Assembly: GCA_017418275.1 (NCBI GenBank)
Contig: JAFONX010000009.1
Coordinates: forward strand, 1-38,225
Direction of reading: 5' to 3'
Length of the DNA: 38,225 nucleotides
Source of the DNA: Candidatus Saccharimonadota bacterium
GTDB taxonomy: Bacteria > Patescibacteriota > Saccharimonadia > Saccharimonadales > Saccharimonadaceae
Part shown: positions 3,025-26,591 of the stretch, one piece after another
Position numbering within the stretch: position 1 is the first letter of the stretch
How the letters are laid out: each line of letters opens with the position of its first letter
The notes under the pieces: model-generated
Databases searched by the model: none
Seen by the model: the letters and a program-made list of their open reading frames with translations, nothing else
What the model was told of the DNA's origin: nothing
Program-made: the position numbers and the translations under genes

Positions 3025-3026
3025 CT

Positions 3027-3530: not shown

Positions 3531-3536
3531 TTCTTT

Positions 3537-3542
3537 ATTCTA
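3537..3542 (-). promoter_or_regulatory. -10 element for sipA-like/sortase pair
   Basis: The minus strand reads TAGAAT six bases before ATG 3530. It lies just after the T-run of the pilin terminator, so the two assembly genes can be expressed separately from the pilins. Confidence 0.45.
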
Positions 3543-3543
3543 A

Positions 3544-3575
3544 CAAAAAGCCCGAACCAGTGTGCTGACCCGGGC
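3544..3575 (-). terminator. Rho-independent terminator after pilin gene
   Basis: On the minus strand GCCCG (3575-3571) pairs with CGGGC (3554-3550), with a partly paired interior, and is followed by TTTTTG. It separates the major pilin-like gene from the sipA-like gene and may act as a partial terminator to set dosage. Confidence 0.7.
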
Positions 3576-3587
3576 AATTTTTAGTTT

Positions 3588-4685: not shown

Positions 4686-4713
4686 TTTTCTCTCTCTTTT
4701 TTCTTTAATTTTT

Positions 4714-4722
4714 ATTTTACCA
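4714..4722 (-). promoter_or_regulatory. Extended -10 promoter for pilin-like gene
   Basis: The minus strand reads TGGTAAAAT, an extended -10 element (TGn followed by TAAAAT). It lies 28 nt before ATG 4685 in the gap between two pilus genes. An AGAGAG ribosome site lies between box and ATG. Confidence 0.55.
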
Positions 4723-4750
4723 TAAGCGTTTTATAATCACAAATTCTGCA

Positions 4751-5911
4751 TCATGTCTTCTCCTTCGACCTTACGAGAAGTAGTATTACCACGCAGACAA
4801 TTGAAGCCGCCCCGAGTATCATGAAAGCTCCGTTACCTAATTCGAGGCCAGTATTCACAATCTTATCGATGATTGTTTCTTTTGCTCGGCGGTTAATAAA
4901 AAGGGTTTTGTTTTCAGTTGGATTTTCGTATGCAATCTTCTCGACTTTTACGCGCTCACCAAGCGATTTGTCGTCAATCCAAGTAGTATACCCCTCGACA
5001 TCGGCATATTCAGTATAACTATAGCTCAAGCCAACCAGTATTTCGTTTTCGTCCGTTTCACTCTTGCCAATAATCGCCGATTCGCCATGTTTTAGATAGA
5101 GAGTAGCTATTTCCCCTGGTATTGCTTCCGTATCTGATTGCACCGATTTGCCGCCAAAGGTATATTTTTTAGAAGGCGCATCAATTGTATATCTATCTTC
5201 TTCGGACCCCTCAATCAAAAGTTCATACTTAAAGACGTCATCTTTACTCGAGTCATTACCTTCGACGGTATTCGTAATTTCGGTATAACTATACTTTTTT
5301 GGAACAAAATCGTTGTAACACAAGAAATGTGCGTGATTCACTTTTGTAAATTGTGGCGTACCCGAAACAACTTTTCGTAGGTTTGTAATAAAAGCGAAAT
5401 AGCCTCCCGTCGGTTGGTATTCTTCGTCAAATGCGTTTTGTACAACAACATCAAAGGTATAAGCTATTTCGTCATTGTAAGCTAAATCTTCTGGTGCAGA
5501 GCTGATCGAGAGCTTCATATTATAAACCGCCGGCGTCGCTGGCACACTTACGTCCGAAAAATCTACAATCAGATTCTTAGCGGTAGACGTCTGCTCCATC
5601 GGTTCGAGCGTAAAGTCTATATTAGGAACGCCCTCTACAGCATCAAGACCATCCGTCTCCATAATTTCATAGGTAAAATCACCGCCAGCAATATTCAGTG
5701 TTGCATATTTGACTTCCTGCGTGACCATAAAAGACGATGGGCCATCATCCGAATTTTCGCCAATCGTAATCCTATCTTCGGCGTGCGCGAGCGAACCGAA
5801 GCCTAGAATACTAAAAAGGCCAATCAAGATTAGACCAATCGCTTTTAGTGCCTTATTGCTCTTCATTAGCACCTCGTTTTTCTTATTAGCTTCAGAGTAT
5901 TTATTTTTCAT
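4751..5911 (-). CDS. Second FctA-domain pilin-like surface protein
   Basis: This 386-residue secreted protein has a signal peptide with hydrophobic core about 23-40, ending AHA near 44. An N-terminal beta domain (45-200) is followed by an FctA-like domain (about 207-342) marked by LYLKHGESAIIG. The expected isopeptide Asn (FINRR, Asn340) and Glu (YSYTEY, Glu301) are present. The Lys position reads TNTVEGN, with Thr where the neighbouring pilin has Lys, so this domain probably lacks the bond. The C-terminus has IVNTG, a hydrophobic helix (about 361-380) and RSKEKT, a sorting-like signal without Leu-Pro. It starts 9 bp after the adhesin stop, behind a GGAAGGGA ribosome site. A second plausible start is ATG 5866, behind GAGGTG, which gives a more usual signal peptide. 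Confidence 0.75.
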   Translation of the reverse strand: MKNKYSEANKKNEVLMKSNKALKAIGLILIGLFSILGFGSLAHAEDRITIGENSDDGPSSFMVTQEVKYATLNIAGGDFTYEIMETDGLDAVEGVPNIDFTLEPMEQTSTAKNLIVDFSDVSVPATPAVYNMKLSISSAPEDLAYNDEIAYTFDVVVQNAFDEEYQPTGGYFAFITNLRKVVSGTPQFTKVNHAHFLCYNDFVPKKYSYTEITNTVEGNDSSKDDVFKYELLIEGSEEDRYTIDAPSKKYTFGGKSVQSDTEAIPGEIATLYLKHGESAIIGKSETDENEILVGLSYSYTEYADVEGYTTWIDDKSLGERVKVEKIAYENPTENKTLFINRRAKETIIDKIVNTGLELGNGAFMILGAASIVCVVILLLVRSKEKT

Positions 5912-5920
5912 ATCCCTTCC

Positions 5921-8749: not shown

Positions 8750-8772
8750 CGAAAACACCTCTCTTTTTTTAT

Positions 8773-11785: not shown

Positions 11786-11794
11786 ACTTTTACG

Positions 11795-11826
11795 AAAATA
11801 CCCCCTCAAAGAAGGGGGTATTTTTT
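11795..11826. terminator. Bidirectional Rho-independent terminator between folD and VirB6-like operon
   Basis: AAAATACCCCC (11795-11805) pairs with GGGGGTATTTT (11814-11824) around an eight-base loop, followed by further T. The A-run on the other side makes it work on the minus strand too. It ends murB-folD on one side and the long VirB6-like operon on the other. Confidence 0.9.
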
Positions 11827-11833
11827 ATGTTGT

Positions 11834-14014
11834 TTATGGATGAGCTTTGTTAAAGTCACTAATTGCAGTTTCAAGACCATCGTAGTCGCTCGCCGTAGCG
11901 TTCTGATATGCTTTCAGCTTCTTCATGTCGGCATAAGTTGATGCGATTTGACGCTGAATGTCCTGATTAGTACCGCTCTTCATATAACTTTCCAGCTGCT
12001 CAATCTGTGGTTTCGCGACGTCCGCAAGCCATTCAGCATTAAAGTCGTCTGACCGAGCAAGCGCTTCAACCCACTGGTTGTGCTCGTAAACTGGCTGACC
12101 TTTTTTAGTACCAATCTGCTGACCATTCCACTTTGCTGCAGCGCCAGTCGGCGGAGTATCTGAGGCGATTGCTTTATAATACTGACGCATCGCGCCATGC
12201 TTTCTCTTGAGTACACCATCACTGTCCGCAAGACGCTTGCGTGCCACCTCGCGGCGGATCTCATCTGCCCTCTCACCGTCACCGAGATTATCAAGAGCCG
12301 TAGCAATGCAACCATCGGCGTCATTCTTATCATTAACGGTATTCCAATGCCTAACAGCGCCAGAAATCTGCGCCGCAATATCTTGAGCCGTACCATCGCT
12401 ATTAATAATCTCTGCAATTTTATCAGGCATTCCTTCGTTACCCACACTCGCAAGCATCTCTTCGGTAGCTTTGGCCTGCTGATCCATTTCCTCGTAGCGC
12501 GCCATCTCTTCGGCATTATTATCACTACGCCGCAAGGCACGATCTTGCTGGGCGCGTTTTGCGGCATCTAGGCGCTGCCTCTGACTATGCGAACGAGTCA
12601 TCCCGCCCCACCAGGCTTTATCGCCGTTTTTATTCACGCCAGCACGCATGCGATTCGCTCGCTCCTTTGCGCCACGATCAAGTTGTCGCCCGAGTTTACT
12701 ATTGCGCGCAACACTTCCGACAAAACCTTTAAGTTTGTTCGCGAGACCCTGCAGCTTCGCGCCTAGCGCGCCAGCCGACTGGATAATTGTTTTTGGGATC
12801 AAAAAGATCGGAATCACGCTTGCCGCTACGGCTATCACCATTGTAAAGATATTCACGGCGCCATTCTTATCGCTTACCCCCATCGCCGCCAAAATAACAT
12901 TTGCAGCAAAAGCACCACCTTTTACCATGAGCGAACAAATCGGATAGGCAAGCAGTAGCCCCCTGAATAGACCAAACCATTGATTAAAGGTCTTTTTAGT
13001 GCCCGGTAAAATATATAATAGAACCGCTACTGGCGAAGTAATCGTCAAGAGAATAATTAGGGCTTTACGTAACTGAATCACGGTTAGTAGCAACAATATA
13101 CCAATTACAGTCGAAAGAACCGCTACCAGCATCAAGAGCGTTAGCGACTGACCAGACGCAAGCGCAGTTTTTGTCGCGAAGAAAGCCATAATACCAGCTA
13201 ACACACCGCCAACCGAAACTCCACTCATAAACATAGTTTGACTCTGAGTATCCGTCAGGGCGTTAAAGTTAATCTTAGCTTTAGCCGAAGCCGCCAGTCC
13301 ATCAAACACTGCACCAACACCGTCACCAATAATATTTGCAACATCTATGGCTATACGACAAAGGAAGAAGGAAAGATTTATAATAATCGCAGCAGCAATG
13401 ATACGCGGCAAAGATTTTTTAATACCATAGTTAGATATACCCAATCCCGTGATTTGCGAAACGATCATCACCATAAGCATGGCGACCAGAATAATGTCCG
13501 CGATAATCCGGAAGCGATTCCAGGCCTTCTCGAGAGTTTTCGAGCTAAAAATCGTCGGATCCATACTCATGTATTTCTGAACATACGGATACACAGTAGC
13601 TGTCAGCCCGCCGGCCGCCTTGTTTAAACCACAGGCAAACCAACCCCAACCCGAAGCCTCTTTCGTACAGTTCGTCGCTTTGCGGTCAGTTTCGATCAGA
13701 CTTGTATCGTCCCCCAAATTTATCAAGGCGTCATCGAAGTTAAAATCACCGCGACTCGTCTCGCCATCCAACGCATTATATAAATCACTAGAATACACAA
13801 GATCATTCCGCACCAGGCCATCACCTAAGCCTAAGTTAGACTTAGCGCACGTATAGTAGGATATCGAATCCGTCGAGATTGTACCGCATTTTTTCCAAAC
13901 CTTGTCAGCATTACTTTCGGCATAAATGTCCGCGCTAATTGTCAAACCAAAAAGCCCACTAAGCAACAGCATTGCTACCGACAATACAATTTTTCGAACA
14001 TTTTTATTCTTCAT
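11834..14014 (-). CDS. VirB6/TrbL-like polytopic membrane protein (paralog 5)
   Basis: This protein has 726 residues from ATG 14014. A signal peptide (1-32) and an extracytoplasmic stretch with a Cys pair (Cys116 and Cys128, spacing C-x11-C with GWGWFAC) precede about six hydrophobic helices. The conserved core reads SQITGLGISNYGIKK, then LPRII, INLSFFLCR and AIDVANIIGDG. A later block has VAVLLYILPGTKKTFNQWF. The second half is a long soluble, Arg/Gln/Ala-rich helical region. VirB6/TrbL proteins form the inner-membrane channel part of type IV secretion systems. The start overlaps the preceding MNCT gene by 11 bp. The longer in-frame reading from 14101 lacks a signal peptide start. It is the last gene before the terminator. 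Confidence 0.75.
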   Translation of the reverse strand: MKNKNVRKIVLSVAMLLLSGLFGLTISADIYAESNADKVWKKCGTISTDSISYYTCAKSNLGLGDGLVRNDLVYSSDLYNALDGETSRGDFNFDDALINLGDDTSLIETDRKATNCTKEASGWGWFACGLNKAAGGLTATVYPYVQKYMSMDPTIFSSKTLEKAWNRFRIIADIILVAMLMVMIVSQITGLGISNYGIKKSLPRIIAAAIIINLSFFLCRIAIDVANIIGDGVGAVFDGLAASAKAKINFNALTDTQSQTMFMSGVSVGGVLAGIMAFFATKTALASGQSLTLLMLVAVLSTVIGILLLLTVIQLRKALIILLTITSPVAVLLYILPGTKKTFNQWFGLFRGLLLAYPICSLMVKGGAFAANVILAAMGVSDKNGAVNIFTMVIAVAASVIPIFLIPKTIIQSAGALGAKLQGLANKLKGFVGSVARNSKLGRQLDRGAKERANRMRAGVNKNGDKAWWGGMTRSHSQRQRLDAAKRAQQDRALRRSDNNAEEMARYEEMDQQAKATEEMLASVGNEGMPDKIAEIINSDGTAQDIAAQISGAVRHWNTVNDKNDADGCIATALDNLGDGERADEIRREVARKRLADSDGVLKRKHGAMRQYYKAIASDTPPTGAAAKWNGQQIGTKKGQPVYEHNQWVEALARSDDFNAEWLADVAKPQIEQLESYMKSGTNQDIQRQIASTYADMKKLKAYQNATASDYDGLETAISDFNKAHP

Positions 14015-14603
14015 CCGCCTTCTTCCAATCTTTGATGTCTTTCGGTTCCGAGTAGCTTGACGTGCCACCAGGGCCACATTGAATCTCCGCCCCAGGACCA
14101 ACGTTCTTAATTGACTCTTTCATTTCGTCAAAGAAATCCGGTAGCGCCTCATCGAATTGTTTTCTAGTCAGCTGAACATCCCCAACACGGCGCGCAACAT
14201 AGTCGCCCTCGAAAAGCTGTTCCTTCTCAGCCAATTGTGGCACGGCAGACCAGATATATACATTATCGCCATGTGCATAAATAGAAGCATATGCGCCATA
14301 AAGGTCATAACGATCAATATAAAAGTTCTCGCCGCCCTTATCCATCGCAAAAGTCAGCGTGAGCTTAGTTGGAGTGATAGTTGCGTCTTCGTCTCCGACT
14401 GGAGCCCAAGTTACAGTACAATTCATCGTTTCGCGATTATTTATCATTTTTGCAAACTCGCTGCGTAGAACTTTTTCCGAAGCGATTTTACCGCTGCGAA
14501 CACCTATGATAATTAGACCAATCGTCGCTAAGACAAACGCTGCACCTAATACAGCAATTGTAATAATCGATCTCCGGCGTGCTATTTGTGATTCTCTATC
14601 CAT
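14004..14603 (-). CDS. Bitopic MNCT-domain protein (partner of VirB6-like protein)
   Basis: This 199-residue protein has a short basic cytoplasmic N-terminus, one transmembrane helix (about 12-34) and an extracytoplasmic domain. The domain starts with a helix ending NNRETMNCT (Cys62). It continues through YIDRYDLYG, then DNVYIWSA and RKQFDEALPDFFDEM, and ends with IQCGPGG (Cys176). The same landmarks occur in the proteins at 17319-17990 and 22876-24180, so the three are homologs. I do not recognise the domain as a named family. The two conserved Cys probably form a disulfide outside the membrane. It is sandwiched with a 1-nt gap and an 11-bp overlap between two VirB6-like genes, which argues for a joint complex. 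Confidence 0.7.
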   Translation of the reverse strand: MDRESQIARRRSIITIAVLGAAFVLATIGLIIIGVRSGKIASEKVLRSEFAKMINNRETMNCTVTWAPVGDEDATITPTKLTLTFAMDKGGENFYIDRYDLYGAYASIYAHGDNVYIWSAVPQLAEKEQLFEGDYVARRVGDVQLTRKQFDEALPDFFDEMKESIKNVGPGAEIQCGPGGTSSYSEPKDIKDWKKADEE

Positions 14604-14604
14604 A

Positions 14605-17319
14605 TTATGATCTCATATTAATCCGTTGTGTTATTACGTCACAGATAGATGTAGCACTATCAGACTGTTGTTGTAGCGCCTTTTTCGCATCATTATCAGT
14701 TGTAGCACTTATTAACGTTTTCGACTTTTGCCTGATAGCCTTATCCATATCTTCCATCACACCACGCATAATCTCGTTGCGCGCATTAGTCAATTCCTTG
14801 CCGTTCAAGCCTTTCCTACGCAAAATTTCATCCAGCTGGGCATTCGCAGCTTTCGTAATTGCCTCCATCCGCACAGTGTCGCAACCACTAGAATTCGTAA
14901 GTGCTCCCAGAACGCCATCATTGCCTCCTGGTCGCGTATGCTCATCAAGAAAGGTTTCCTTGAAGTTATCGCGAAACTTTTGCTCAACAGCCTCTTTCGC
15001 AATACCATCATAGTCCGTAGCCGGCTTGAGCTCTGCACGGTCAGAGCGAATCGTCCTAGCCGTCTCTGCTTCGACCGCAGTTCTACGAATATTCTTAATA
15101 TGCTCAAGATTTGCTACTTGCTCTGGAGACATCGTAGACCGTATTACCGCGCTATCCAAGGCGCCCTCAGCCAGAGCAAGCGCCTTAATCGTGCGCGAAC
15201 TGTGTAGCTCCTTAGGATCTCCTTCGACCTTCGACATAAGATCTTCAACAACACGCCTCTGCGCAGATAAATCCATTTCGGCAAGATGCTTTGGCGAGAG
15301 GCCATCTAATTGTCTTTCCGTAATAGCAAAGTTCTTATCCACGCCCAAATCACCAACGTTTAAGGTGCCGTTATCATTACCGTCTTTCAAAATCGCGTTA
15401 ATCTTATTACTAAGAATTGGGTTTTTCTTTTTAATCGAATTTAGCTCAGCCGGCGTCATACCATTAGCAATCGCTTTTATTGCAGTAACATTTTCTTGTA
15501 CTTTTTTGTCTGCCAATAAAGCCTCGAGTGCATCACGGCCAGCCGCACCGTCCGCCACCAATGCGGATGTATAGGCGCTCAACTGAACCGGATTCATTGT
15601 TTTCGGATCGGCGGCCATTTTCTTCATAGCATCACTAACCTGCGTCACGTTAAGGTTATCGTTTTTAATCTGTGCGCGCCAAGCCGCAGTTTCAAGGTTA
15701 CGTTCCTGATTTCCAATATCCGCAAAGCGAGCGTCTGCCATTTTTTTCTTTTTAGCACGAATCGAAGCTTTAACGCGTGAAAGCTCACCCGCAGAAGTAT
15801 GTTCTAGATCCGTACTACCCGCTTTAAGATTCGGATTTTTTACCTTTGCACGATAAAGACGTTGCCCCTTAAGCATACCTCTGCGAATTTGAAGATCCGT
15901 AAGCGGTACGGAGACTTTTTCATACTCGTTACTCGTAGGGTTAAAGACATAGAAATTGCTGCGTTCATTTTTCTCCACATCCTTTAACTTCTTTTTATAG
16001 GCGTTCGCACGGCGCTCTTCAGACTGAATACGCACGGCATTCTTGATATATGGCGCGTTAGGGGAAAGCTTATCTCCAGCTCGTAGTGTAGCATTATAAG
16101 CACGCTTCACGAACTTCGTCGCCTTATTGTCGTTAGCGTTGATTATTTGCTTCTTCGGCGTAATTTTGTTACCAAAGCCAAGCCACGAGCGCTTATAGCC
16201 CGCACGCGCAAGTTGTATATTCTGATCAGAACGACGCTCCAAATCTGTCACCCAGCGATGCCTACGAAATGCGCCCCGTCCATTCTTCTGTAGAAAACCG
16301 TTTAATCTTGCCATCGCACTCTCGGCCGCGCCTAGAGACTTCATCATCACGGAAGGAATTAAGAAATATGGTACGGTCGCAATCAGCAAAAAGCTAAGAT
16401 TTCGCAGAATTTCAGCATAACTGCCACTATCGGTCCACGTGCCATATATCACCGCCCCCGCATAGCTGCCTCCGTATATCATAAGACTACAGATTGGATA
16501 AGCAAAAAGAATACCTTTAAACAGCGAGAACCACTTGCTAAAGATGGATTTCGTACCCGGAAGCATGTAGCATACAAATGCAATAGGCGCAAAGACCACA
16601 AGCAATATACAAAGCGCTTGGCGCACGACCGAAACCACAAAGAGCAAGCATACCGCGAGCAGAATTGCTACAAAGCCTAAAATAACTAGAAGAATAATCT
16701 TCGTACCTAGACCCTTAGCCGTAATAACAAGGAAACTCACCACGCCAATCATTAGGGTCATAAGTGCCGTACCGCCACCAGTAGTAAAGTTAATATCCGG
16801 TGGAATCGAATCAATCATTAGATCTTCAAACATTGAACCAAGCCCAGAGCCGAGGATATTCGCAAGATCAATAGCACCTTGACAGATTAAATACGAAAGG
16901 TTAACCATTACGATGCCCGCTATCATGCGCGGTAACATTTTCTTGACGCCGTAATTACTGATACCGATACCCGTAATCTGCGAAAGGACCACTACAAAAA
17001 GCAAAATTCCAAAAGCAATATTCGCTAAGCCCCGCACACTACTCCAGGCGGTATGGAGCGCGTGTCCAGGCGAGCCGATATATTCGTAGTCGAAGGTCGC
17101 CGGACTGATCTCAAGAAAAAAATCAGCAAAAACCTCATAAGCGGCGGTCATAAAGGACGCAATGTGATCCAGTGAAGTACAAGTCAAGTTTTGGAAAAAG
17201 CCATCACATTCCGGTTTGCTATACTCGCCATTTGCAGCAAAGGAACGCGGCGCGAAGACGCCAAACACCGCAACGAAAGTAATTGCAATTAGCGCCAGAC
17301 GCTTGAAAAGTTTTTTCAT
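14605..17319 (-). CDS. VirB6/TrbL-like polytopic membrane protein (paralog 4)
   Basis: This is a 904-residue protein. A signal peptide (1-29, ending SFA) and a short extracytoplasmic piece with Cys38 and Cys47 (C-x8-C, shorter than in the paralogs) precede several membrane helices. Core motifs are SQITGIGISNYGVKK, MLPRMIAG, VNLSYLICQ and AIDLANILGSG, then CYMLPGTKSIFSKWFSLFK and LFAYPICSLM. From about residue 340 the chain is a very long (over 550 residues) charged helical soluble region. Its ATG overlaps the stop of the preceding MNCT gene as TGATG, with GGAGGG as ribosome site, so translation is coupled. Function is inferred only from the VirB6/TrbL likeness. Confidence 0.75.
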   Translation of the reverse strand: MKKLFKRLALIAITFVAVFGVFAPRSFAANGEYSKPECDGFFQNLTCTSLDHIASFMTAAYEVFADFFLEISPATFDYEYIGSPGHALHTAWSSVRGLANIAFGILLFVVVLSQITGIGISNYGVKKMLPRMIAGIVMVNLSYLICQGAIDLANILGSGLGSMFEDLMIDSIPPDINFTTGGGTALMTLMIGVVSFLVITAKGLGTKIILLVILGFVAILLAVCLLFVVSVVRQALCILLVVFAPIAFVCYMLPGTKSIFSKWFSLFKGILFAYPICSLMIYGGSYAGAVIYGTWTDSGSYAEILRNLSFLLIATVPYFLIPSVMMKSLGAAESAMARLNGFLQKNGRGAFRRHRWVTDLERRSDQNIQLARAGYKRSWLGFGNKITPKKQIINANDNKATKFVKRAYNATLRAGDKLSPNAPYIKNAVRIQSEERRANAYKKKLKDVEKNERSNFYVFNPTSNEYEKVSVPLTDLQIRRGMLKGQRLYRAKVKNPNLKAGSTDLEHTSAGELSRVKASIRAKKKKMADARFADIGNQERNLETAAWRAQIKNDNLNVTQVSDAMKKMAADPKTMNPVQLSAYTSALVADGAAGRDALEALLADKKVQENVTAIKAIANGMTPAELNSIKKKNPILSNKINAILKDGNDNGTLNVGDLGVDKNFAITERQLDGLSPKHLAEMDLSAQRRVVEDLMSKVEGDPKELHSSRTIKALALAEGALDSAVIRSTMSPEQVANLEHIKNIRRTAVEAETARTIRSDRAELKPATDYDGIAKEAVEQKFRDNFKETFLDEHTRPGGNDGVLGALTNSSGCDTVRMEAITKAANAQLDEILRRKGLNGKELTNARNEIMRGVMEDMDKAIRQKSKTLISATTDNDAKKALQQQSDSATSICDVITQRINMRS

Positions 17320-17990
17320 CAGAAACTCCCTCCGCCAATATTCGTGAAGCGACTAATATTTGGACGATAATACTCGAGTTCGTCACCTTGCGCTTTGCAA
17401 TGAATTTTACGATTATCACTATTATCTAGCATTAGACCGTCAGGAAATTCTAACCCCGTGCGCTTAGCGAATTGCTCTTTCGTCTCAATAAAAGATTTTT
17501 CCTTGATGACATTTTTGTCATTTTTCGCGCCGTTATATACCACAGAATATATTAAATCATCCACGTAGATTATATCCGTAACATTGTCTGCTAACCAAAT
17601 ATTACTAATATATGCTTCGTCCCAGCCATCTTTAGCAGCCACAGCATAATCCGAACTTTTCGCTTTGCCCCCTTCATAAGCCGTGCAATTCATTGCATCA
17701 TGATATTCAATACGCGCATTAAACTCTTCAACACTTATGTCGCCTGCTCCTGTATTTGAGAAGCGGCGAATAGCAAGAACAATTATGGCAAGGATTGCCA
17801 AAAAGGACCCTGCCGAAACGCCAATTATCGTTATCAAGCGTTTGCGTTTTTGCGCAGATTCATCAACCGGCACTGATGGTGTACTTGAGACTGCCTGGGC
17901 AAAGAAGTTTTGGCCAGAAAAATTACGCGTACCCGCCGTCCTGGCGCGACTCGAAGTGATATATTTTGGTTTTTGTTTATCTGATTGCAT
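17319..17990 (-). CDS. Bitopic MNCT-domain protein
   Basis: This 223-residue protein has a 50-residue cytoplasmic tail, a transmembrane helix (about 52-75) and an extracytoplasmic domain. Domain landmarks are EYHDAMNCT (Cys102), DGWDEAYISN (121-130), the DLIYSV strand, KEQFAKRTGLEFPDGL and IHCKAQG (Cys198). These align in order with the other two members. The domain is not one I can name. The gene is the first of a tight four-gene unit (17990 to 11834) and has its own extended -10 box at 18015-18023. It overlaps the following VirB6-like gene by one base, supporting a stoichiometric partnership. Confidence 0.7.
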   Translation of the reverse strand: MQSDKQKPKYITSSRARTAGTRNFSGQNFFAQAVSSTPSVPVDESAQKRKRLITIIGVSAGSFLAILAIIVLAIRRFSNTGAGDISVEEFNARIEYHDAMNCTAYEGGKAKSSDYAVAAKDGWDEAYISNIWLADNVTDIIYVDDLIYSVVYNGAKNDKNVIKEKSFIETKEQFAKRTGLEFPDGLMLDNSDNRKIHCKAQGDELEYYRPNISRFTNIGGGSF

Positions 17991-18014
17991 TTTCTGGCTT
18001 CCGGCCTTGTTTTT

Positions 18015-18023
18015 ATTTTAGCA
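18015..18023 (-). promoter_or_regulatory. Extended -10 promoter of four-gene MNCT/VirB6 unit
   Basis: The minus strand reads TGCTAAAAT, identical over nine bases to the boxes at 20829, 24188 and 26538. It lies 24 nt before ATG 17990. Confidence 0.6.
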
Positions 18024-18044
18024 CAAGCTTAATTATTCTTCTTT

Positions 18045-20822
18045 CTAACGGCTCCTAAACAATGCAATTTGCCCGACAACCGCATCGCGACTGACGCCAT
18101 TTTTAAAGCTAAAGCTCGGCGCGGAGATCTTATCGTACAGAGAGCTCATCATGACAGTATGCTGTGCTTCAAGATCTTCTTTAGCTTGCTGTGTTGGAGC
18201 GCCAGCAAGATCCGAGGCTGCCACTTTATCAAGTTCTTTAACGGCCGCTTCGAGACCAATCAAGTCGCCGCTTTCCGCATACTTTGTCGCTTTATCAATC
18301 AAGAAGACCTTATCTGTAGCACTTGCACTGGTCAAATCTCCGGCCTGAATACCATCCAAGGATGCTGGCGGATTATTCGGGTCAAAGGTATAGCTACTCG
18401 GCCTCTGCAATTCATTTGTTGCTTTCGTGTCGATTCTCGTGTTGCGTTGACTAAGATAATCATTCGCGCCATTCATTGAATCAAGCGTAACATTATTTGC
18501 AAGCTCAGGACTGGTCGTAATTTCTTCCATGGCGCGCGTATACTGCACTGAAAATTCTGTATCATAATCGGCTTCCGCGTTGGTACGTAACTGTGTTTTA
18601 GTCCAATCAGAATAGTTTTCATAGTCTGCACTAAAGTTAAAGCTAAGACCAGATTTTGCCAGGTCAAATGATGCAGGAGCACCGCTAGAGGTGCCAACAT
18701 TGTGCCCGCGACCGGCGGATGCTAATACTGCGGCAGCATATGGCGAACGACGCGCCATGCCGTCGAGCTCTTTTTGGCTGAAAACACTAGCCATAGACGC
18801 ATATTCTTCTGTCGTGTGCAAGCCAGAGCTCATATACGCTTCAATTTGAAGAACGCCCTCTTGTGTCTTGGAAAGAGCATGCACGATGGCCGCACGACCA
18901 ATGCCGTCGCCATTTTGATTAGCCTCAACAAGCATCGTGCCAAGCTGCTGAGGATCGAGCCTTTGCAGTTCGTATTCTTCTTCACGCTCCTTAATACGCA
19001 TATTCCGCTCAGAATTTTGAATATATACCGGATCCTGTTTTCGAACCTCATGATCGGCGTCAAATTTATGCCCATTCATGGCATCCTGTAAATAGCGGTC
19101 TGAACGAGCTGGACGATGGCTGTTATACCAGCCACGGAATTTGTTACGTGTTTTCTTGAATGGGCCGTGTTTCGCTTCTGGCTTATAGTGCGCCAGCTGA
19201 TCGAGATGCTTCTGGTTAGCCTTAGCCTGCAAACCTTCAGCAACACCACTTTGGCTAAAGCTACGCGAAGCTCTGTTTGTAAGGTCATTTTGTACTTTAG
19301 CAACAACAGTATTTAGTTTACCGAGAGAGTCATTAATAACTTTCGGAATAAAGAAATATGGCGTTACAGCTACAGCGAATCCGCCCAAGAGACTATATGG
19401 CGTGGTTGGTCCCCAAGTAGCAATCAAGACCTTAGAGGCAAACAGACCGCCATAGACCATAATACTCGCAATCGGAAATGCCAAAAGTAAGGCTTTAAAC
19501 AAATTAAACCATTTATCGAAAATGCTTTTCGTGTTTGGAAGAACATAGCAAATCAGAGCAACCGGCGAAACTACTACTAGTATTACAATCGCGGCACGGC
19601 GAATGCCAAGCGTAACAAAGAGCGCAAAAATCGCAATTAACCCCGCGAGCAATGCCAATATGAGCGGAATCAATAGTGCTGGATTAGTAGCAAGCGCGTA
19701 AATACCCGCTACAATCAGCGCTAGTATAACTGTCAGGTTTGCTACTGTACCCCAGCCATCAGCTGCACCCTTCACCGCAGGGATCGTTACATCTTCGGCC
19801 ATGCTCTCGATTAAACCCCCAATAGATTGGCCAAGAATATTGCTCAAATCAATTGCGAGCTGACAAATGAAATATGAAAGATTAACGAGAACAATGCAGG
19901 CAATCAAGCGTGGTAGAAGTTTTTTGACGCCATAGTTACTAATACCCATCCCCGAAATTTGCGACAAAATAATCACAAACAACAAAATCACAAAAGCAAT
20001 ATTTGCAAGATTACGAAAATATCCCCAAACTTCATAGGTCGAATCTCCAGCCGTCATACTTTTAACATCATCATCAAACTTCAGCAATTCCGGCGATACA
20101 TCGAGCGAATTCGCAATGGTACTTTCATATAGACTAGAAATTGCATCCTGCAAGCCATCGACTATTGGACAGAAAATATAGCCAATCAAGCCATTTTCGG
20201 AGAGACAAGTTGGATCCTCGTCGTCCTTATCCTCGTCCGCAATGTCATAAAAGCCAACGTCCAACGGTTCGTCATATTTGGTACTTAATTGATAATTAGA
20301 AGAACTCGCTTTCTTATCGTTACCGAAACTTATTTTATCCGTGCATTGCGCGAAACTATGGTCCGATGCAAGAAGACAAACGCGCACGGTGTACGTATAC
20401 GGACTCGAGCTAGTATCGTACGATGGCCTGCCATTCGCGACAAAATAATACATATTATCATGCGAATCGCCATCCTTTTTTACAATTGTAAACTGACTGA
20501 CCGACAATATCGTATACCCCGTATTAGCCGAATCCTCACTGATAACCTGAATCTCATCAACGCCTAATTCATAGTCCGTACCACCTCCGGCCGAAGCGCC
20601 AATATAACCTTCGACTTTAACTTTTTTGAGTTTAGTCGCGGTTGCGCGGTCAGTTTTAACATCATAAATTTTTACAGAATCAGCCGGACCATCGGCATAG
20701 ATTGGCACATTTACCGAAAAGAGCGCCAAAAATACAGACACAAGAATACTAGAGATAATACTAAGCCCGCTTTGATGCTTTAGTTTTTGTGCTAAAACAT
20801 TAAAGCCCACTCTTTTGCTCAT
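18045..20822 (-). CDS. VirB6/TrbL-like polytopic membrane protein with extra N-terminal beta domain (paralog 3)
   Basis: This is a 925-residue protein. After a signal peptide (about 18-43) it has an additional extracytoplasmic domain (about 46-190) of alternating beta pattern, including TYTVRVC, not present in the paralogs. Then comes the conserved Cys pair (Cys206 and Cys218, C-x11-CP). The membrane core follows: SQISGMGISNYGVKK, LLPRLIACI, VNLSYFICQ, AIDLSNILGQS, and CYVLPNTKSIFDKWFNLFK. A soluble Gln/Ala/Asp-rich helical tail of about 400 residues ends the protein. The extra domain suggests a role reaching furthest outside the membrane. The gene has its own promoter six bases before the ATG. 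Confidence 0.75.
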   Translation of the reverse strand: MSKRVGFNVLAQKLKHQSGLSIISSILVSVFLALFSVNVPIYADGPADSVKIYDVKTDRATATKLKKVKVEGYIGASAGGGTDYELGVDEIQVISEDSANTGYTILSVSQFTIVKKDGDSHDNMYYFVANGRPSYDTSSSPYTYTVRVCLLASDHSFAQCTDKISFGNDKKASSSNYQLSTKYDEPLDVGFYDIADEDKDDEDPTCLSENGLIGYIFCPIVDGLQDAISSLYESTIANSLDVSPELLKFDDDVKSMTAGDSTYEVWGYFRNLANIAFVILLFVIILSQISGMGISNYGVKKLLPRLIACIVLVNLSYFICQLAIDLSNILGQSIGGLIESMAEDVTIPAVKGAADGWGTVANLTVILALIVAGIYALATNPALLIPLILALLAGLIAIFALFVTLGIRRAAIVILVVVSPVALICYVLPNTKSIFDKWFNLFKALLLAFPIASIMVYGGLFASKVLIATWGPTTPYSLLGGFAVAVTPYFFIPKVINDSLGKLNTVVAKVQNDLTNRASRSFSQSGVAEGLQAKANQKHLDQLAHYKPEAKHGPFKKTRNKFRGWYNSHRPARSDRYLQDAMNGHKFDADHEVRKQDPVYIQNSERNMRIKEREEEYELQRLDPQQLGTMLVEANQNGDGIGRAAIVHALSKTQEGVLQIEAYMSSGLHTTEEYASMASVFSQKELDGMARRSPYAAAVLASAGRGHNVGTSSGAPASFDLAKSGLSFNFSADYENYSDWTKTQLRTNAEADYDTEFSVQYTRAMEEITTSPELANNVTLDSMNGANDYLSQRNTRIDTKATNELQRPSSYTFDPNNPPASLDGIQAGDLTSASATDKVFLIDKATKYAESGDLIGLEAAVKELDKVAASDLAGAPTQQAKEDLEAQHTVMMSSLYDKISAPSFSFKNGVSRDAVVGQIALFRSR

Positions 20823-20828
20823 AGTAAT

Positions 20829-20837
20829 ATTTTAGCA
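20829..20837 (-). promoter_or_regulatory. Extended -10 promoter for paralog 3
   Basis: The minus strand reads TGCTAAAAT ending six bases before ATG 20822, so the mRNA is predicted to be leaderless. Confidence 0.6.
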
Positions 20838-20864
20838 TAAACATTATATGTTTATTTTATTCAA

Positions 20865-22886
20865 TCACGGATTCCTACTTTTATCCGCAACCCCTTTAAT
20901 AATATCTGCACGTCGCACCGAAGTCTTACCCATAAGGTTGGTATCGTCAGAGATGCGTTCACAGTGTGATATAAAGGTTTGAGAGAAGGCATCGTTGCGC
21001 AATGTGAAGTTTCCAGCCTGGAAATCTTGAGGAGTAACTGCTCCGCCTGCGCCGCCTGTACTCTGAACACTTTGCTGCATCATTTCCTCCATAATATCGC
21101 CATTGAGGTTGGCAAAGTCTTCGTCCGAAAAATTATCGAGCATATCTGCCGTATACGTGCTAAGGCCAGGCGAACTGAAGTCCTCGAGCTGCGGCAGTGG
21201 CGCGCCGGAACCTGCAGGCGGATTCGCCGGCGCGTTACCCCATTGAGTTAGAGCTTTGGCAAGGCGAGGATCTTGTTTTGATAGCGTGCCCATCGCTTCC
21301 ATGGAAAGGCTACTACCCATTGCACGCTTCACATTATCCGATAATGGTGCCCGTGAACCACCGAAGCTTGCGTCCGACAAATTCTTACGCAAGACTTTTC
21401 GTCCCCCCGAGCTGCCCGCAAGCGCACGTGTAAGCGCCTTGATTTCCGCCTCCTGCATGCGCACTTCTTGCCTGCCCTTGTCTCCTTTTCCGGCAGCCTC
21501 GCTCAGTGCGTCCTGCGCCTTAGCAAGACGCTCCCCCAGAGCTTCTGGCACCTCTCCACGTAGTTTTATACGATTTGCTGCTTCTTGTTCAAGGGCGCGA
21601 TCCTCGCGATTCTGCATAAGGTCTGGGTTAGCTTTCATATTTTCAAGCTCTCGCTCGTCCGCAGCAAATTTTAACGCTGCATCTACGTGGCGATTACTCC
21701 CAAAGCGACTGCGCTTAATGTTGCCATCTTTGTCACGCTTAATATTTCCTTTACTATCCGTCTTAATACCAGACCAACGATAAGCACGATTGCGATCAGT
21801 CTTATATTTAAGATCTTTTGCCATATCACTGCGCGCAAGCCTTTGTCCTGCAAAGCCATGGATGCCTCGCTTGGCTTGCTCTGTAAACTGTGTTAGTTTT
21901 CCAATAGATCCCTTTATTACACTTGGGATGAAGAAATATGGCACAATGCAGACCAACATTGAACCCAACGCAGCAAAGAAGTTGTTGTCTCCGTCCCAAA
22001 CCTGATATAGAATTTGCGCAGCTAGCGAACCAGCGCCCATCATTATGGCCGCGATTGGATACGCGAGCAGCACCGCCTTAAACAAGCCGAACCACTTTTT
22101 ATAGACGCTATTTAACCCTGGCACAGAATAGCAAATGATTGCAATTGGCGAAACTACCACTGACAACACAGCCAATACTTGTCGTACGCCAAGGACAAGA
22201 AACAAGAAAATGACCGCCAGTAGAAGCCCGATAGCCGAAATCATGACAGGGACAATAAATACTGGACTTATTTTCATTAATACAATTACAGCGCTCAAGA
22301 GGCCAATCACGACCGCAATAACCGCAATCGTGATACCTGTATCGTTTGTACCACGCGCCACTAAAGCACTGTCTTTGACGAGATTGTCAAAGAGCGCCCG
22401 CATGCCACTACCTGCGATATTACTCATATCAACCGCAATTTGACAAATGATATACGATAAGTTCACTAGTACTGCGCAAAGTAGTATGCGAGGTAGAGCC
22501 TTTTTAATGCCGTAATTACTTATACCAACACCCGTAAACTGCGAAAGAATTACAATAAACAGATAGATCACAATCGCAATATTAGCAATACCTTGAAAGT
22601 ATTGCCAAGCAGAGAATACACTGTCTCCTGGGTCGTTCGTGCCTGTATGCGTAAAAAGCTGCGGCTTCACCTCTAGCCATTCTTGCAAAACCGTCACAAA
22701 GATATCATTTACAGTTTTCTGTACCGTATCGATCATTGGACAGCTCATCCAGCTAGTAGCCCCACCCGCGTCTAGACAAGACGACAAATCGAGCTTGCTG
22801 ACAGCATGCGCCGTACCTACCGATAACAGTAGACTCGTCACAATAAACGCCGTTGCTAGGAGCTTTTTGAAGATTTTACTGCGCAT
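20865..22886 (-). CDS. VirB6/TrbL-like polytopic membrane protein (paralog 2)
   Basis: This protein has 673 residues from ATG 22886. The upstream in-frame TTG at 22898 is less likely. It has a signal peptide (1-28, THA), then Cys37 and Cys49 (C-x11-CP, with TSWMSCPMID). The membrane core follows: SQFTGVGISNYGIKK, ALPRIL, VNLSYIICQ, AVDMSNIAGSG, and CYSVPGLNSVYKKWFGLFK. The C-terminal half is soluble and charged, with GSSGG and Pro/Gly-rich linkers. The ATG overlaps the end of the MNCT gene by 11 bp, the same overlap length as at 14004-14014. This is the smallest of the five paralogs and the clearest example of the family plan. Confidence 0.75.
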   Translation of the reverse strand: MRSKIFKKLLATAFIVTSLLLSVGTAHAVSKLDLSSCLDAGGATSWMSCPMIDTVQKTVNDIFVTVLQEWLEVKPQLFTHTGTNDPGDSVFSAWQYFQGIANIAIVIYLFIVILSQFTGVGISNYGIKKALPRILLCAVLVNLSYIICQIAVDMSNIAGSGMRALFDNLVKDSALVARGTNDTGITIAVIAVVIGLLSAVIVLMKISPVFIVPVMISAIGLLLAVIFLFLVLGVRQVLAVLSVVVSPIAIICYSVPGLNSVYKKWFGLFKAVLLAYPIAAIMMGAGSLAAQILYQVWDGDNNFFAALGSMLVCIVPYFFIPSVIKGSIGKLTQFTEQAKRGIHGFAGQRLARSDMAKDLKYKTDRNRAYRWSGIKTDSKGNIKRDKDGNIKRSRFGSNRHVDAALKFAADERELENMKANPDLMQNREDRALEQEAANRIKLRGEVPEALGERLAKAQDALSEAAGKGDKGRQEVRMQEAEIKALTRALAGSSGGRKVLRKNLSDASFGGSRAPLSDNVKRAMGSSLSMEAMGTLSKQDPRLAKALTQWGNAPANPPAGSGAPLPQLEDFSSPGLSTYTADMLDNFSDEDFANLNGDIMEEMMQQSVQSTGGAGGAVTPQDFQAGNFTLRNDAFSQTFISHCERISDDTNLMGKTSVRRADIIKGVADKSRNP

Positions 22887-24180
22887 TTTCGGCGTCAATC
22901 TCCGTCTTGTGCGCCTTCAAGGTGTCCGTGTAGCTATCAATGCCGTCACTCTTGCAGGTAATTGTCATACCCTTGAGCTTCGTGCTCTGATATTCGTCAG
23001 CTGTAAGCTTTACGTAATTATAGAAGTTATCTTCGAATCCACTCTCGAACTGTTCACGATTAACCTTGGCGGACTTTGCGACCTTCTCATTTTCACTGAG
23101 GCGATATTTTGCCGTACCATCTCCGGCCGCACGAACAGTGTTTGTTACGGACCACAAATAAGCATCTTCACCACTGAAGTAGATTGAAACCGGCGCGTTT
23201 TCCAAACCGAGACCACTCACAATAGAGCCGGCACTCAAGCTTCGCGTAGCGTCAAAATTACTTACAAAAACTTCCGTCCAACCATCATTGGCTGCTATTG
23301 TCCAAGCTTTCTCAGTCAGAAGCTCATATTCGCCATCTGTATAGCTTTGTCCGGTATATTTAGCGATATTATAATTCGCAGTACAGTTCATAGCCTGACG
23401 TTCATCGATACGCTTGTTATATTCTTCGTAGTCAATCGTTTCTTCTGTTACAACTACGACCGCCGGTTCGTCTGGCTTTTCAGTCTCGTCACCACCCTTG
23501 TTGGCATTAATAATTGAGATAACGCCCCAAATACCACCGCCCAGCAAAAGCACAACGACAATAATAATTACAATTATTAGTGGCAATGATATATCTGATT
23601 TCTGTTTTTGCGGCTTCGGCTGAATGTAAGGCTGAGGCGCCGGCATTGGCGCCGGCATTGGCGCCGGCATTGGCTGCGGCATTGGCTGCGGCATTGATTG
23701 CGGCATTGGTTGCGGAGCGGGCTGAGGGATTGGCTGCGGTGCTGGTTGGGGTGCCTCCGGCGGCAATTCTGGCTCCGGCTTTGGCACTGGTCGTGGCTTT
23801 GGCGGCGGCGCGATAGGTTCCGGCTCCGGTTCTGGCTCTGATTCGAGGATTGGTTCTGGCTCTAGATCCGGTTCCGGTTCGACGGGATTCGACAAAAATT
23901 CAAGCTCACTATCTTTTATGCCACCAAAAGAAGTTGCGGAACCACCTATGGCAATCTGTGGCTGTTCGCGTGTATTTGTAACACTAAAAGCGTTGGCGCG
24001 ATCATATGACGAAGTTGCATAAGCAGAATTATCTACCTGTTCACGCAACGCTGCAAGCTGCGGATCGTCACTCAATGAGTTACCCGAATTTAGCCTCGAG
24101 CCATCGTCCTTATCCTGATCAGCAAAAGGATTGTTCTGCCTTAGCTGTGGATTTTTACTATTTGCGCCATTATTGTCCAT
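22876..24180 (-). CDS. Bitopic MNCT-domain protein with Pro/Glu-rich cytoplasmic region
   Basis: This is a 434-residue protein. Its N-terminal 197 residues are hydrophilic and low-complexity, with a Glu-Pro stretch (101-122) and PMPQ/PMPA repeats (144-183) encoded by 12-bp DNA repeats. One transmembrane helix (about 198-226) leads to an extracytoplasmic MNCT domain. Landmarks are DERQAMNCT (Cys266), DGWTEVFVSNFDA, EDAYLWSV, NREQFESGFEDNF and ITCKSDG (Cys409). It is the largest of the three homologs. The Pro-rich arm could span or bind cytoplasmic partners, by analogy with TonB-like arms; that is inference. A TGCTAAAAT box lies seven bases before the ATG, and the next VirB6-like gene overlaps its 3' end. 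Confidence 0.7.
   Translation of the reverse strand: MDNNGANSKNPQLRQNNPFADQDKDDGSRLNSGNSLSDDPQLAALREQVDNSAYATSSYDRANAFSVTNTREQPQIAIGGSATSFGGIKDSELEFLSNPVEPEPDLEPEPILESEPEPEPEPIAPPPKPRPVPKPEPELPPEAPQPAPQPIPQPAPQPMPQSMPQPMPQPMPAPMPAPMPAPQPYIQPKPQKQKSDISLPLIIVIIIVVVLLLGGGIWGVISIINANKGGDETEKPDEPAVVVVTEETIDYEEYNKRIDERQAMNCTANYNIAKYTGQSYTDGEYELLTEKAWTIAANDGWTEVFVSNFDATRSLSAGSIVSGLGLENAPVSIYFSGEDAYLWSVTNTVRAAGDGTAKYRLSENEKVAKSAKVNREQFESGFEDNFYNYVKLTADEYQSTKLKGMTITCKSDGIDSYTDTLKAHKTEIDAENAQ
23641..23712. repeat. 12-bp tandem repeat encoding PMPA/PMPQ
   Basis: Six units of about CGGCATTGGCGC or CGGCATTGGCTG in tandem, in frame with the MNCT gene. Slippage here would change the length of the Pro-rich arm by four residues per unit. 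Confidence 0.8.
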
Positions 24181-24187
24181 ATTATTT

Positions 24188-24196
24188 ATTTTAGCA
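24188..24196 (-). promoter_or_regulatory. Extended -10 promoter for MNCT/VirB6 pair
   Basis: The minus strand reads TGCTAAAAT, ending seven bases before ATG 24180. A leaderless mRNA is predicted. Confidence 0.6.
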
Positions 24197-24224
24197 TAAA
24201 CGTCTTGTGCTGGCGACGTAACAA

Positions 24225-26525
24225 TTAGGTCTTTAATCGCTCAATAACTTCGCGCTTGGCGTTTGTTGCGCCCTTATATGATTCACTGCCTGTATAGGCA
24301 CTAGCCGCAGCCCTCACACTCTGCGCCCCAGCTTGCAAATTCGCAATCTGTGCCGGCGTTGTACTAGCATTGGAGAATTCCGGTGCAGCGCCAGACTCAA
24401 TCGCATTAACACGCTGTTCAAGATATTGCACTTCGGAAGTATCTTGCGCTTCAAGCTTACTTCCAGTCATACGTCGCATTGCGTCACCGGATAGCTGATA
24501 CTGATCAATCCTACCCACTTGCATCCCACTACCACTATTCACGACGTCTCTAGCCCAGTTTGCTAGCCTGACATTTTGGCCCTCCATCTCGCCGAAGCCC
24601 TGTTCCATAATAGTCCGCGCGACTGTCTGTTGGTTTTGTGTACTTATTCCATTATTAGAGAGGGCTTGCATGAGAACCATTCGACCCGCTTCGCCCTGCG
24701 ACAAGAGATGTTCAGTAGCCGCTCGAGTTTGGTATTCGTCGTCATTACCCAAAATTGCATTCATGCGCCCAAGCTCTGCGGACTGCGAGGTAATACCCTG
24801 CGACTCCTGAATCTCGCTTTGTTCCGAAACACGTTTTGCATCGTCGCGTGCGCCGATATTTCCAGCATCATCATACAACGCAAAGCGATTAAGTGCTGCG
24901 TTAGATTTTTGCGCACCAGCTAGGTTTCTATCCATATTAGTCGTACGCATACTATTTAGCTTACTGCGCATAGAGTTACGTGTATCTTCCGACATAAATC
25001 GTCGCGTGACTCTATTATCTGCAAGCTTATCACCAATCGAATGCAGATTGCCATCTTTACCACGGTAAGTAAACGAGCGACGGCGCTGAGTTTTTTCAGC
25101 TTTGATGTTATTGGCATCCGTAGCAAATCTGGTCTCGGAAAGCCTTTTACCAGCAAACTTCGTAATGCCATTTTGAGCCTTTAACACTAGGCCATCCAGG
25201 GAGGCCAACGCACTGCGCGTGATTTTCGGTAACATCGTAATAGGTACAATACAGATCGCCATCGAAACAATCGCCATAATAAAGCTCTCGCCATTCCAAA
25301 CCTTCATCACAAGACGGGCTGCAAAGTTACCACCCATCATCAGAAGCGAGGCGATTGGATAGGTTAGAAGTAAGCCACGAAAAAGTTTAAACCATTTATC
25401 AAAAATCGACTTTGTGCCCGGAAGAACCGCCATGGCGATTGCGACCGGCGAAGTTACAACTAGAATAATCATCACAGCTTGACGAACAACTAACATTAAA
25501 TAGGTAAAGAATACCGTAAGTACACCACCGAGCAAAGCCATAATAATTGGCATCAAGAATGCCGGACCAACCGCGATCGCCGCCACGACAATTGCAACCG
25601 CCGCAATCACGACCGCCACTATTACCGATGCAAAAATAGACATACCTGCCACACCGCCAGCATTTTCGAGCTCAATATGACTCGAGAATTCTATAAAGAG
25701 GTTCGCGATGCCAGAACCAAGAATATTACTCAAGTCTACAGCTATCTGACAAATAGGATAAGATATATTCACAACCACCACCAACGCAATAAAGCGTGGC
25801 AACATCGCGCGGAGATTATAGCGTCCTTCACCAAAACCCGTAAATTGTGCGAATATGATAAAGAACAACACTAACACGAAGAAGATATTAGCGTAAGTCC
25901 TAAAGCTTCCCCAAGCATCCTTTGCCGCATTCGTATTAGTCGTTTCATTGGTTGCAACCGTTAAAATCTGCGGATCAAAGACTAGCCATTCTTCAACAAT
26001 ACTTGTATAGATCCGAGTCATAAAGGAAGAAAGACCATCAATGAGCGGACAAGTAAACCAGCTCAGAGCTTCGTTAGCTGCATAGCACGGATCAGTATAA
26101 CCTTCCGCAATTTTTTCACCCTCATCACTGTTACCATCTTCATCTTTCGGCGTAGTACGCACGCGTGTGCCCTCGATCGCGTCGCAACGTACGCGATTTT
26201 TCATCGCGTCATCCTTGCTAACCCCGCTACCGATATATTTCGTGTCACTACATTCCATCATGGCTTCCTGATCAGTAAAACCTGCGTCTTTCACACATTT
26301 CACAATTTCGTCGGCCTGTTCGTCGGCCTTTTTCTTTTCATCATCATTTTGAGGATCAATATTAATATCCATCCCCATGCATACCTCAAATTCTGCTTGT
26401 TTATCTGGAGTGATTTCCGCAAAACTTGCACGACTAGAAAAAAGATTAATGATAGACGCAAAAAGCAGAACCACAAAAAGGCTTATTGCACGAAAACTTT
26501 TTAGATGCCCTTTTGTTTTAAGCAT
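24225..26525 (-). CDS. VirB6/TrbL-like polytopic membrane protein (paralog 1)
   Basis: This is a 766-residue protein. A signal peptide (about 10-36, SFA) leads to a Cys-containing, acidic extracytoplasmic region (37-145) that is unlike the paralogs. The conserved pair Cys147/Cys159 follows (C-x11-CP, LSWFTCPLID). Core membrane motifs are AQFTGFGEGRYNLRA, MLPRFIALV, VNISYPICQ, AVDLSNILGSG, and AMAVLPGTKSIFDKWFKLFR with LLTYPIASLLMMGG. A soluble C-terminal region of about 300 residues follows. The GxGISNYG motif of the other four is replaced by GFGEGRYN, making this the most divergent copy. It is the first gene of the block and has its own TGCTAAAAT promoter. Confidence 0.75.
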   Translation of the reverse strand: MLKTKGHLKSFRAISLFVVLLFASIINLFSSRASFAEITPDKQAEFEVCMGMDINIDPQNDDEKKKADEQADEIVKCVKDAGFTDQEAMMECSDTKYIGSGVSKDDAMKNRVRCDAIEGTRVRTTPKDEDGNSDEGEKIAEGYTDPCYAANEALSWFTCPLIDGLSSFMTRIYTSIVEEWLVFDPQILTVATNETTNTNAAKDAWGSFRTYANIFFVLVLFFIIFAQFTGFGEGRYNLRAMLPRFIALVVVVNISYPICQIAVDLSNILGSGIANLFIEFSSHIELENAGGVAGMSIFASVIVAVVIAAVAIVVAAIAVGPAFLMPIIMALLGGVLTVFFTYLMLVVRQAVMIILVVTSPVAIAMAVLPGTKSIFDKWFKLFRGLLLTYPIASLLMMGGNFAARLVMKVWNGESFIMAIVSMAICIVPITMLPKITRSALASLDGLVLKAQNGITKFAGKRLSETRFATDANNIKAEKTQRRRSFTYRGKDGNLHSIGDKLADNRVTRRFMSEDTRNSMRSKLNSMRTTNMDRNLAGAQKSNAALNRFALYDDAGNIGARDDAKRVSEQSEIQESQGITSQSAELGRMNAILGNDDEYQTRAATEHLLSQGEAGRMVLMQALSNNGISTQNQQTVARTIMEQGFGEMEGQNVRLANWARDVVNSGSGMQVGRIDQYQLSGDAMRRMTGSKLEAQDTSEVQYLEQRVNAIESGAAPEFSNASTTPAQIANLQAGAQSVRAAASAYTGSESYKGATNAKREVIERLKT

Positions 26526-26537
26526 AATCTTAGCTTT

Positions 26538-26546
26538 ATTTTAGCA
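26538..26546 (-). promoter_or_regulatory. Extended -10 promoter for paralog 1
   Basis: The minus strand reads TGCTAAAAT, 12 bases before ATG 26525, within a longer TTATGCTAAAATA match to the other boxes of this block. Confidence 0.6.
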
Positions 26547-26591
26547 TAAGCAAACTTGCTATTTTGTCCGAAAATCCATTTTTCTGAGGCA

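Follow-up and report, generated by a model that had tools for sequence, protein, structure and literature searches.

Members of the Saccharimonadia are known for life on other bacteria. A cultured Saccharibacterium requires its type IV secretion system (T4SS) to grow as an epibiont, and one VirB6 was essential in a Tn-seq analysis of Southlakia epibionticum (PMC10633639). The MPF-FATA-like T4SS of Patescibacteria is described in the available part of PMC12102498 as a locus near dnaA with a VirB2 array, VirB6, PrgI, a TrsD-like protein, VirB4 and a lysozyme, and VirB8 in Saccharimonadia is given there as missing, strongly diverged or replaced. VirB6 homologs located partly away from virB4 are mentioned in the available text of both reports. 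A review (PMC12857230) describes VirB6 as a pentameric protochannel that is topped by VirB5/IcmX, and VirB4 of R388 as bound by the tails of VirB8. A preceding sequence-only reading of the locus treated here took VirB6/TrbL as normally single-copy; this holds with a known exception, the five RvhB6 proteins of Rickettsia (PMC2653234). As far as the available text of that report goes, RvhB6a-e likewise make up a set of five divergent VirB6 paralogs, whose flanks are large and variable, in the reduced genome of an obligate symbiont, but they belong to a proteobacterial vir-type system in a different phylum, and an interleaved family of bitopic partners is not reported in it.

The array and its genomic setting

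The window, i.e. the whole 38,225-nucleotide stretch of DNA analysed, is contig C7 of an 813 kb Saccharimonadia genome that is 83% complete. It was compared with Saccharibacteria metagenome-assembled genomes, several of which have an animal gut or rumen origin. Eight intact open reading frames at 11834-26525, encoding five large polytopic proteins (V1-V5) and three bitopic proteins (M1-M3), form an array on the minus strand that is flanked by a DUF11 surface protein and by folD-murB (Table 1). The DUF11-repeat protein has an LPxTG-like end consisting of PTTGAES and a transmembrane (TM) segment, and similar DUF11 proteins adjoin the VirB6 module at the same site in several relatives. Elsewhere in the window, at 2248-8758, lies a surface locus with a sortase, a signal peptidase and three DUF7601/SpaA-like proteins, which resembles a gene set for a pilus or adhesins assembled by sortase.

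Table 1. Features of the array and its surroundings in the window.
Feature	Position	Strand	Description
DUF11-repeat surface protein	26780..29002	-	upstream of V1; context, outside the array
Extended -10-like box TATGCTAAAATA	26537..26548	-	just before V1
V1, VirB6-like	24225..26525	-	766 aa; signal peptide, polytopic core, long cytoplasmic tail
Extended -10-like box TATGCTAAAATA	24187..24198	-	just before M1
M1, bitopic MNCT protein	22876..24180	-	434 aa; overlaps V2
V2, VirB6-like	20865..22898	-	677 aa when called from TTG
Extended -10-like box TATGCTAAAATA	20828..20839	-	just before V3
V3, VirB6-like	18045..20822	-	925 aa; additional N-terminal extracytoplasmic region
M2, bitopic MNCT protein	17319..17990	-	223 aa
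V4, VirB6-like	14605..17319	-	904 aa; 1 bp overlap with M2
M3, bitopic MNCT protein	14004..14603	-	199 aa
V5, VirB6-like	11834..14101	-	755 aa when called from TTG
Stem-loop, 13 pairs, strong	11794..11825		between convergent ends of V5 and folD; terminator-like

Coupling of all genes by overlaps of 1-11 bp had been proposed. It applies to the M-to-V pairs M1-V2, M2-V4 and M3-V5 (11, 1 and 11 bp), with V2 and V5 likely starting at the ATG codons at 22886 and 14014, respectively. It fails at four of the seven junctions, as V4 and M3 lie 1 bp apart and V1/M1, V2/V3 and V3/M2 are separated by gaps of 42-54 bp. Against an expectation of 0.06, the window contains four occurrences of the pattern TATGNTAAAATA, three of which are followed after 6-12 bp by the ATG of V1, M1 and V3. 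Similar boxes precede V1, V3 and M2 in G063, and extended -10-like boxes 0-12 bp before gene starts are also seen at 9266, 15513 and 18268 of locus L038 and before PrgI in L037 (5353). Such boxes close to the starts suggest that transcripts in the genus may be leaderless. Their positions divide the array into four putative transcription units (V1; M1-V2; V3; M2-V4-M3-V5), perhaps leaderless and ending at the stem-loop.

The large proteins belong to the VirB6/TrbL family

The five large proteins are paralogs, with pairwise core E-values of 1e-49 to 1e-87 (blastp) and 35-42% identity to the first sequence over the core. Each starts with a signal-peptide-like segment, continues with a polytopic core and ends in a charged tail that is a few hundred residues long. 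The motifs LPR, N.S...C, A.D..NI.G, P.A and WF.LF are invariant in all five, and the replacement of GISNYG by GEGRYN noted earlier in one protein is located in V1. Judged by hydropathy, six to seven hydrophobic segments follow the signal-peptide-like N-terminus in every copy, compared to the five or more TM segments taken to characterize VirB6/TrbL. The Pfam family PF04610 (cut-off 25.9 bits) scores three of the window proteins at 16.7-18.2 bits (E 0.0023 for V1 and 0.0027 for V4) and gives no match to the other two, and the V3 core alone reaches 21.3 bits, also below the cut-off. Among the relatives, 27 of 64 have Pfam TrbL/VirB6 matches, the best at 1.7e-7, and a profile of the 64 sequences retrieves TrwI/VirB6 of R388 as its sole PDB sequence match (E 0.007).

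An AlphaFold2 model of the V3 core (pLDDT 85) points in the same direction. The first seven Foldseek rows contain chains of TrwI and of the R388 stalk complexes (E 0.006-0.07), and the top VIA-align matches are TrwI (Z 8.5 over 254 residues) and DotA of the Legionella Dot/Icm system (Z 7.8 over 247 residues), a Z of about 8 being a modest value for helical proteins. Most unrelated rows near these two align over fewer than 140 residues. Sequence identity to these best fold matches is about 10%, and the V proteins differ from TrwI and DotA in having signal peptides, a length of 677-925 aa and a bitopic partner gene. As profile, fold and phylogeny (see below) all agree on VirB6, the identification of V1-V5 as VirB6/TrbL-like, made earlier from the letters of the DNA, is supported.

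The bitopic MNCT proteins

The three bitopic proteins form one family (pairwise blastp E-values of 1e-2 to 4e-8), sharing two Cys and short motifs. A profile of the MNCT domain scores M1-M3 and their orthologs at E-values of 1e-54 or below, most of these sequences having been part of the model; an independent indication is that a profile of the ectodomain only finds members outside the model in other genera (5e-10 and 3e-9). The YIWS-like strand previously ascribed to all three is found in M1 and M3 but not in M2 of the window (IYSVV), the orthologs of M2 having YVW. By hydropathy each protein has a single TM segment preceded by basic residues, a VirB8-like single pass with a cytoplasmic tail. 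M1 carries a Pro-rich cytoplasmic N-terminus before its TM segment (199-217) and two Cys in the ectodomain, and M2 a juxtamembrane FFAQA motif common to the helical partners in relatives described below. The family has no relative in Pfam, NCBIfam or PDB, in agreement with its initial description as new, and a search of viral contigs returned no MNCT relatives.

The ectodomain-only profile has members in nine of 393 genomes. Weak class-wide matches obtained with a profile that contained the TM segment were discarded, as they mostly covered the TM segment only. The array-type MNCT domain is present in four species, a divergent MNCT partner adjoins VirB6 in two more genomes (G049 and G304), and solo MNCT proteins are encoded away from VirB6 in three genomes, G232, G222 and G126 (loci L213 3310-3852, L212 8410-9375 and L211 7738-8979). 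The MNCT domain is thus spread wider than the array.

The AlphaFold2 model of the domain, with M3 as target (pLDDT 73), is a beta-meander with helices. Its best structural match is LolA-like (Z 6.0, rmsd 5.8 Å over 117 residues), and the first 27 structural rows are mostly LolA, LolB or RseB, at Z values within the range that common arrangements can give. The likeness of the model to LolA/LolB/RseB is weak. Compared to the LolA/LolB/RseB/LprG fold group, which supplies most of its top structural matches, the MNCT domain is membrane-anchored and has a conserved Cys pair, and no sequence similarity to the group was found. The partner position otherwise recalls VirB8 (TrwG, PrgL, TraM, TcpC), which is likewise bitopic with a cytoplasmic tail and an outer ectodomain and is encoded with VirB6. 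However, the modelled MNCT domain is a beta-meander with weak best matches to LolA, and VirB8 families are absent from the Pfam matches of the MNCT, helical and T4SS-linked partners. The structural match list for the MNCT model contains no VirB8 row, which leaves an NTF2-like fold possible.

Pairing of VirB6 with a bitopic gene in relatives

Across the loci compared, 72 VirB6 copies lie outside the VirB4 locus of the genus and are termed second-type here. A bitopic gene is placed directly upstream of 61 of them, overlapping in 48 of the 61 cases, against a background rate of single-TM proteins of 18%. Three of the five window copies show this arrangement (M1-V2, M2-V4 and M3-V5); V1 and V3 lack a partner directly upstream, which counts against reading the array as a set of modules. 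The "dedicated extracytoplasmic partner" postulated from the window alone is therefore borne out as a gene pairing conserved in genus and class, but its specificity for MNCT is not, since in most relatives the gene at this position encodes a helical ectodomain. This makes MNCT one of several partner types.

The ectodomains of most relatives' partners read as helical from sequence and contain a conserved Cys pair. A tail motif, [FY]F..A, located 21-30 residues before the TM segment in nearly all cases, recurs in 33 of 42 other partners, where 1.5 would be expected, and all four M2 proteins have it. Its absence from M1 and M3 is a further point against the module reading, and FF..A is the only specific link between MNCT and helical partners, for M2 alone. 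Homology of the two partner types through the N-terminus was rejected, as the hhalign similarity comprises the TM helix only (29 columns), and a match of the helical-partner profile to 8qah_A (2.5e-10), a designed coiled coil, was read as composition. G145 has two further sites (L120 2324-3826 and L121 1775-3247) where a bitopic protein of about 500 aa takes the place of the VirB6 partner, and a WG repeat was recognised in one of these proteins (E 1.5e-9).

Other lineages show the gene order bitopic-VirB6-PrgI-(TrsD position)-VirB4 in at least ten loci, and outside the genus a second, partnerless VirB6 is often found upstream of bitopic-VirB6-PrgI-VirB4. The VirB6 lineage is thus found with VirB3/VirB4 in T4SS operons elsewhere, the window copies themselves not being VirB4-linked. 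The T4SS-operon partners of these other families (L157-L177) are very divergent, some with lipobox-like N-termini and strand-rich C-termini; by eye, some of the latter resemble an NTF2-like fold, but Pfam returned nothing for them and no such assignment is made.

Distance matrices of VirB6 and of the partner ectodomain correlate at r 0.415 (loci L042-L049 and L082-L087). Within genomes, the pairing of paralogs agrees in eight of 21 comparisons, which is no better than chance, so that strict one-to-one co-inheritance is unsupported in these comparisons and the module reading is weakened to that extent. Swapping of ectodomains, concerted evolution and noise due to weak alignment are all compatible with this result, and shuffling of ectodomains between copies is possible.

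A single T4SS locus elsewhere in the genome

The genome-wide search for VirB4 and VirD4 called for by the sequence-only reading located PrgI/VirB3 and VirB4 on contig C2 and a VirD4/TrwB-like ATPase on contig C22. The C2 locus encodes VirB2 pilins, a sixth VirB6, PrgI/VirB3, a TrsD-like protein, VirB4, a 924-aa membrane protein, a lysozyme/lipase protein and a PEGA bitopic protein, and adjoins recF, dnaN and dnaA (recognised from sequence). Its VirB2 array, VirB6, PrgI, TrsD-like, VirB4 and lysozyme genes near dnaA are the same as those of the MPF-FATA-like locus introduced above. Two of its products are possible T4SS components, the 924-aa protein (L037 9123-11897), which has no Pfam match, and the PEGA protein (L037 13675-14625). 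With one complete-looking T4SS locus on C2, the array represents an additional VirB6 set. The search yielded VirB4 only once, but as the genome is 83% complete another motor could have been missed. No VirB4, VirB3 or VirD4 gene is located beside the array, which counts against reading it as a T4SS module.

Distribution and descent of the VirB6 copies

The VirB6 family was detected in 358 of 393 genomes of the class, mostly in one or two copies (with at most about five candidates scored per genome), and in 44 of the 45 genus genomes. Where loci of the genus were read, one copy is VirB4-linked and the remainder are second-type, at sites other than the VirB4 locus and often beside folD-murB. Six copies each are present in the window genome, G060 and G063, and four in G273, on broken contigs.

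In trees built from Patescibacteria sequences only, and unrooted, the VirB4-linked copies of the genus form one clade (100/100), and the five window copies group with five of G060 (98/95). One-to-one orthologs are clear for V1, V4 and V5 (about 44% identity for V1 and V4), V2 and V3 pairing with two; an ortholog of V1 was found in L122/L132. The orthologs in G060 place the amplification before that split, and the five copies arose once in this lineage, by duplication from a partner-coupled VirB6. With dN/dS values of 0.05-0.26 among three relatives, the array copies are kept under purifying selection. Partnerless VirB6 proteins of other lineages group with the VirB4-linked genus copies (100/96), and the copies are accordingly read as two old VirB6 lineages, one partnerless and one partner-coupled, although in the unrooted tree the stem of the partnerless group bears one partner-coupled sequence, G176_5724. 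The window array is read as an expansion of the partner-coupled lineage.

Discussion

On balance, and with slightly better than even confidence, the array is taken to consist of amplified VirB6 inner-membrane channel subunits and their partners, belonging to the T4SS of Saccharimonadia. By likeness to TrwI and DotA, each VirB6 would form a pentameric protochannel. The partner, predicted to have a single membrane pass, a cytoplasmic tail and an external ectodomain, would fill a VirB8-like (or VirB5/IcmX-like) place, as its position and topology make either the VirB8 layer or a tethered VirB5 a candidate role. The modules of the array would share one VirB4/PrgI motor, and several versions of VirB6 plus ectodomain may let this motor serve different envelopes, hosts or substrates, or may alternatively build a hetero-oligomeric channel. 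The hetero-oligomeric channel and the contact with the host bacterium put forward in the sequence-only reading are likewise conjectural. A more far-reaching and rather doubtful proposal is that the T4SSs of Saccharimonadia use a distinct VirB6 coupled to a bitopic protein whose ectodomain is interchangeable, and that this module stands in for the missing VirB8/VirB5 layer. In this genus the module would have moved out of the T4SS operon, its copies now giving a hetero-oligomeric or host-tuned channel driven by a single VirB4.

One alternative is that the array is a VirB4-independent machine, in which VirB6-derived pores with ectodomains act as contact-gated channels or nutrient conduits outside the T4SS. 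The lack of a T4SS motor gene at the locus, the five divergent copies with long, variable cytoplasmic tails and the often constant site beside folD-murB and the DUF11 surface protein are compatible with it. Yet other families carry the bitopic-VirB6 pair within their T4SS operons, the genome yielded only one VirB4/PrgI set, and VirB6 works with VirB4 in characterised systems, which makes such a machine unlikely. How the copies are used is a related matter. They may be alternatives employed singly, switched by host, phase or growth stage, rather than parts of a mixed complex, as the separate promoter-like boxes before V1, M1 and V3, the diversity of ectodomains (helical, MNCT, WG) at one gene position and the loose co-inheritance of the VirB6/partner pairs would allow; all five, however, lie on one strand and are conserved in relatives under purifying selection, which is what use of every copy would predict, and we give switching little credence. 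Least probable of all is that the MNCT and other bitopic proteins function as surface adhesins or lipid-binding sensors and have no more than the operon in common with VirB6. The weakly LolA/RseB-like MNCT model (best Z 6.0) and the solo MNCT proteins in three genomes speak for it, but the very regular, mostly overlapping pairing with VirB6 across genus and class does not.

In the available, partial coverage of the Patescibacteria T4SS literature (PMC12102498, PMC10633639), neither a VirB6 array nor a bitopic partner is described, and priority is not certain. The "effector cluster" of TM7x (PMC12592800) was considered as a counterpart of this locus and set aside, since it appears to be the pilin array region (locus tags, PMC12102498). 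Five VirB6 copies have a precedent in Rickettsia; the novelty lies in the conserved VirB6-bitopic module, which has been relocated and amplified, and in the MNCT domain. The array and RvhB6 are assumed to have arisen independently, coming from different phyla, and the expansion of VirB6 in a reduced genome parallels that of the intracellular Rickettsia. For the composition of the T4SS in Saccharimonadia, the findings mean that VirB6 and a bitopic protein lie inside the operon in some lineages and are amplified elsewhere in others. The conserved module is a concrete candidate for the missing VirB8 layer, testable in Southlakia or Nanosynbacter.
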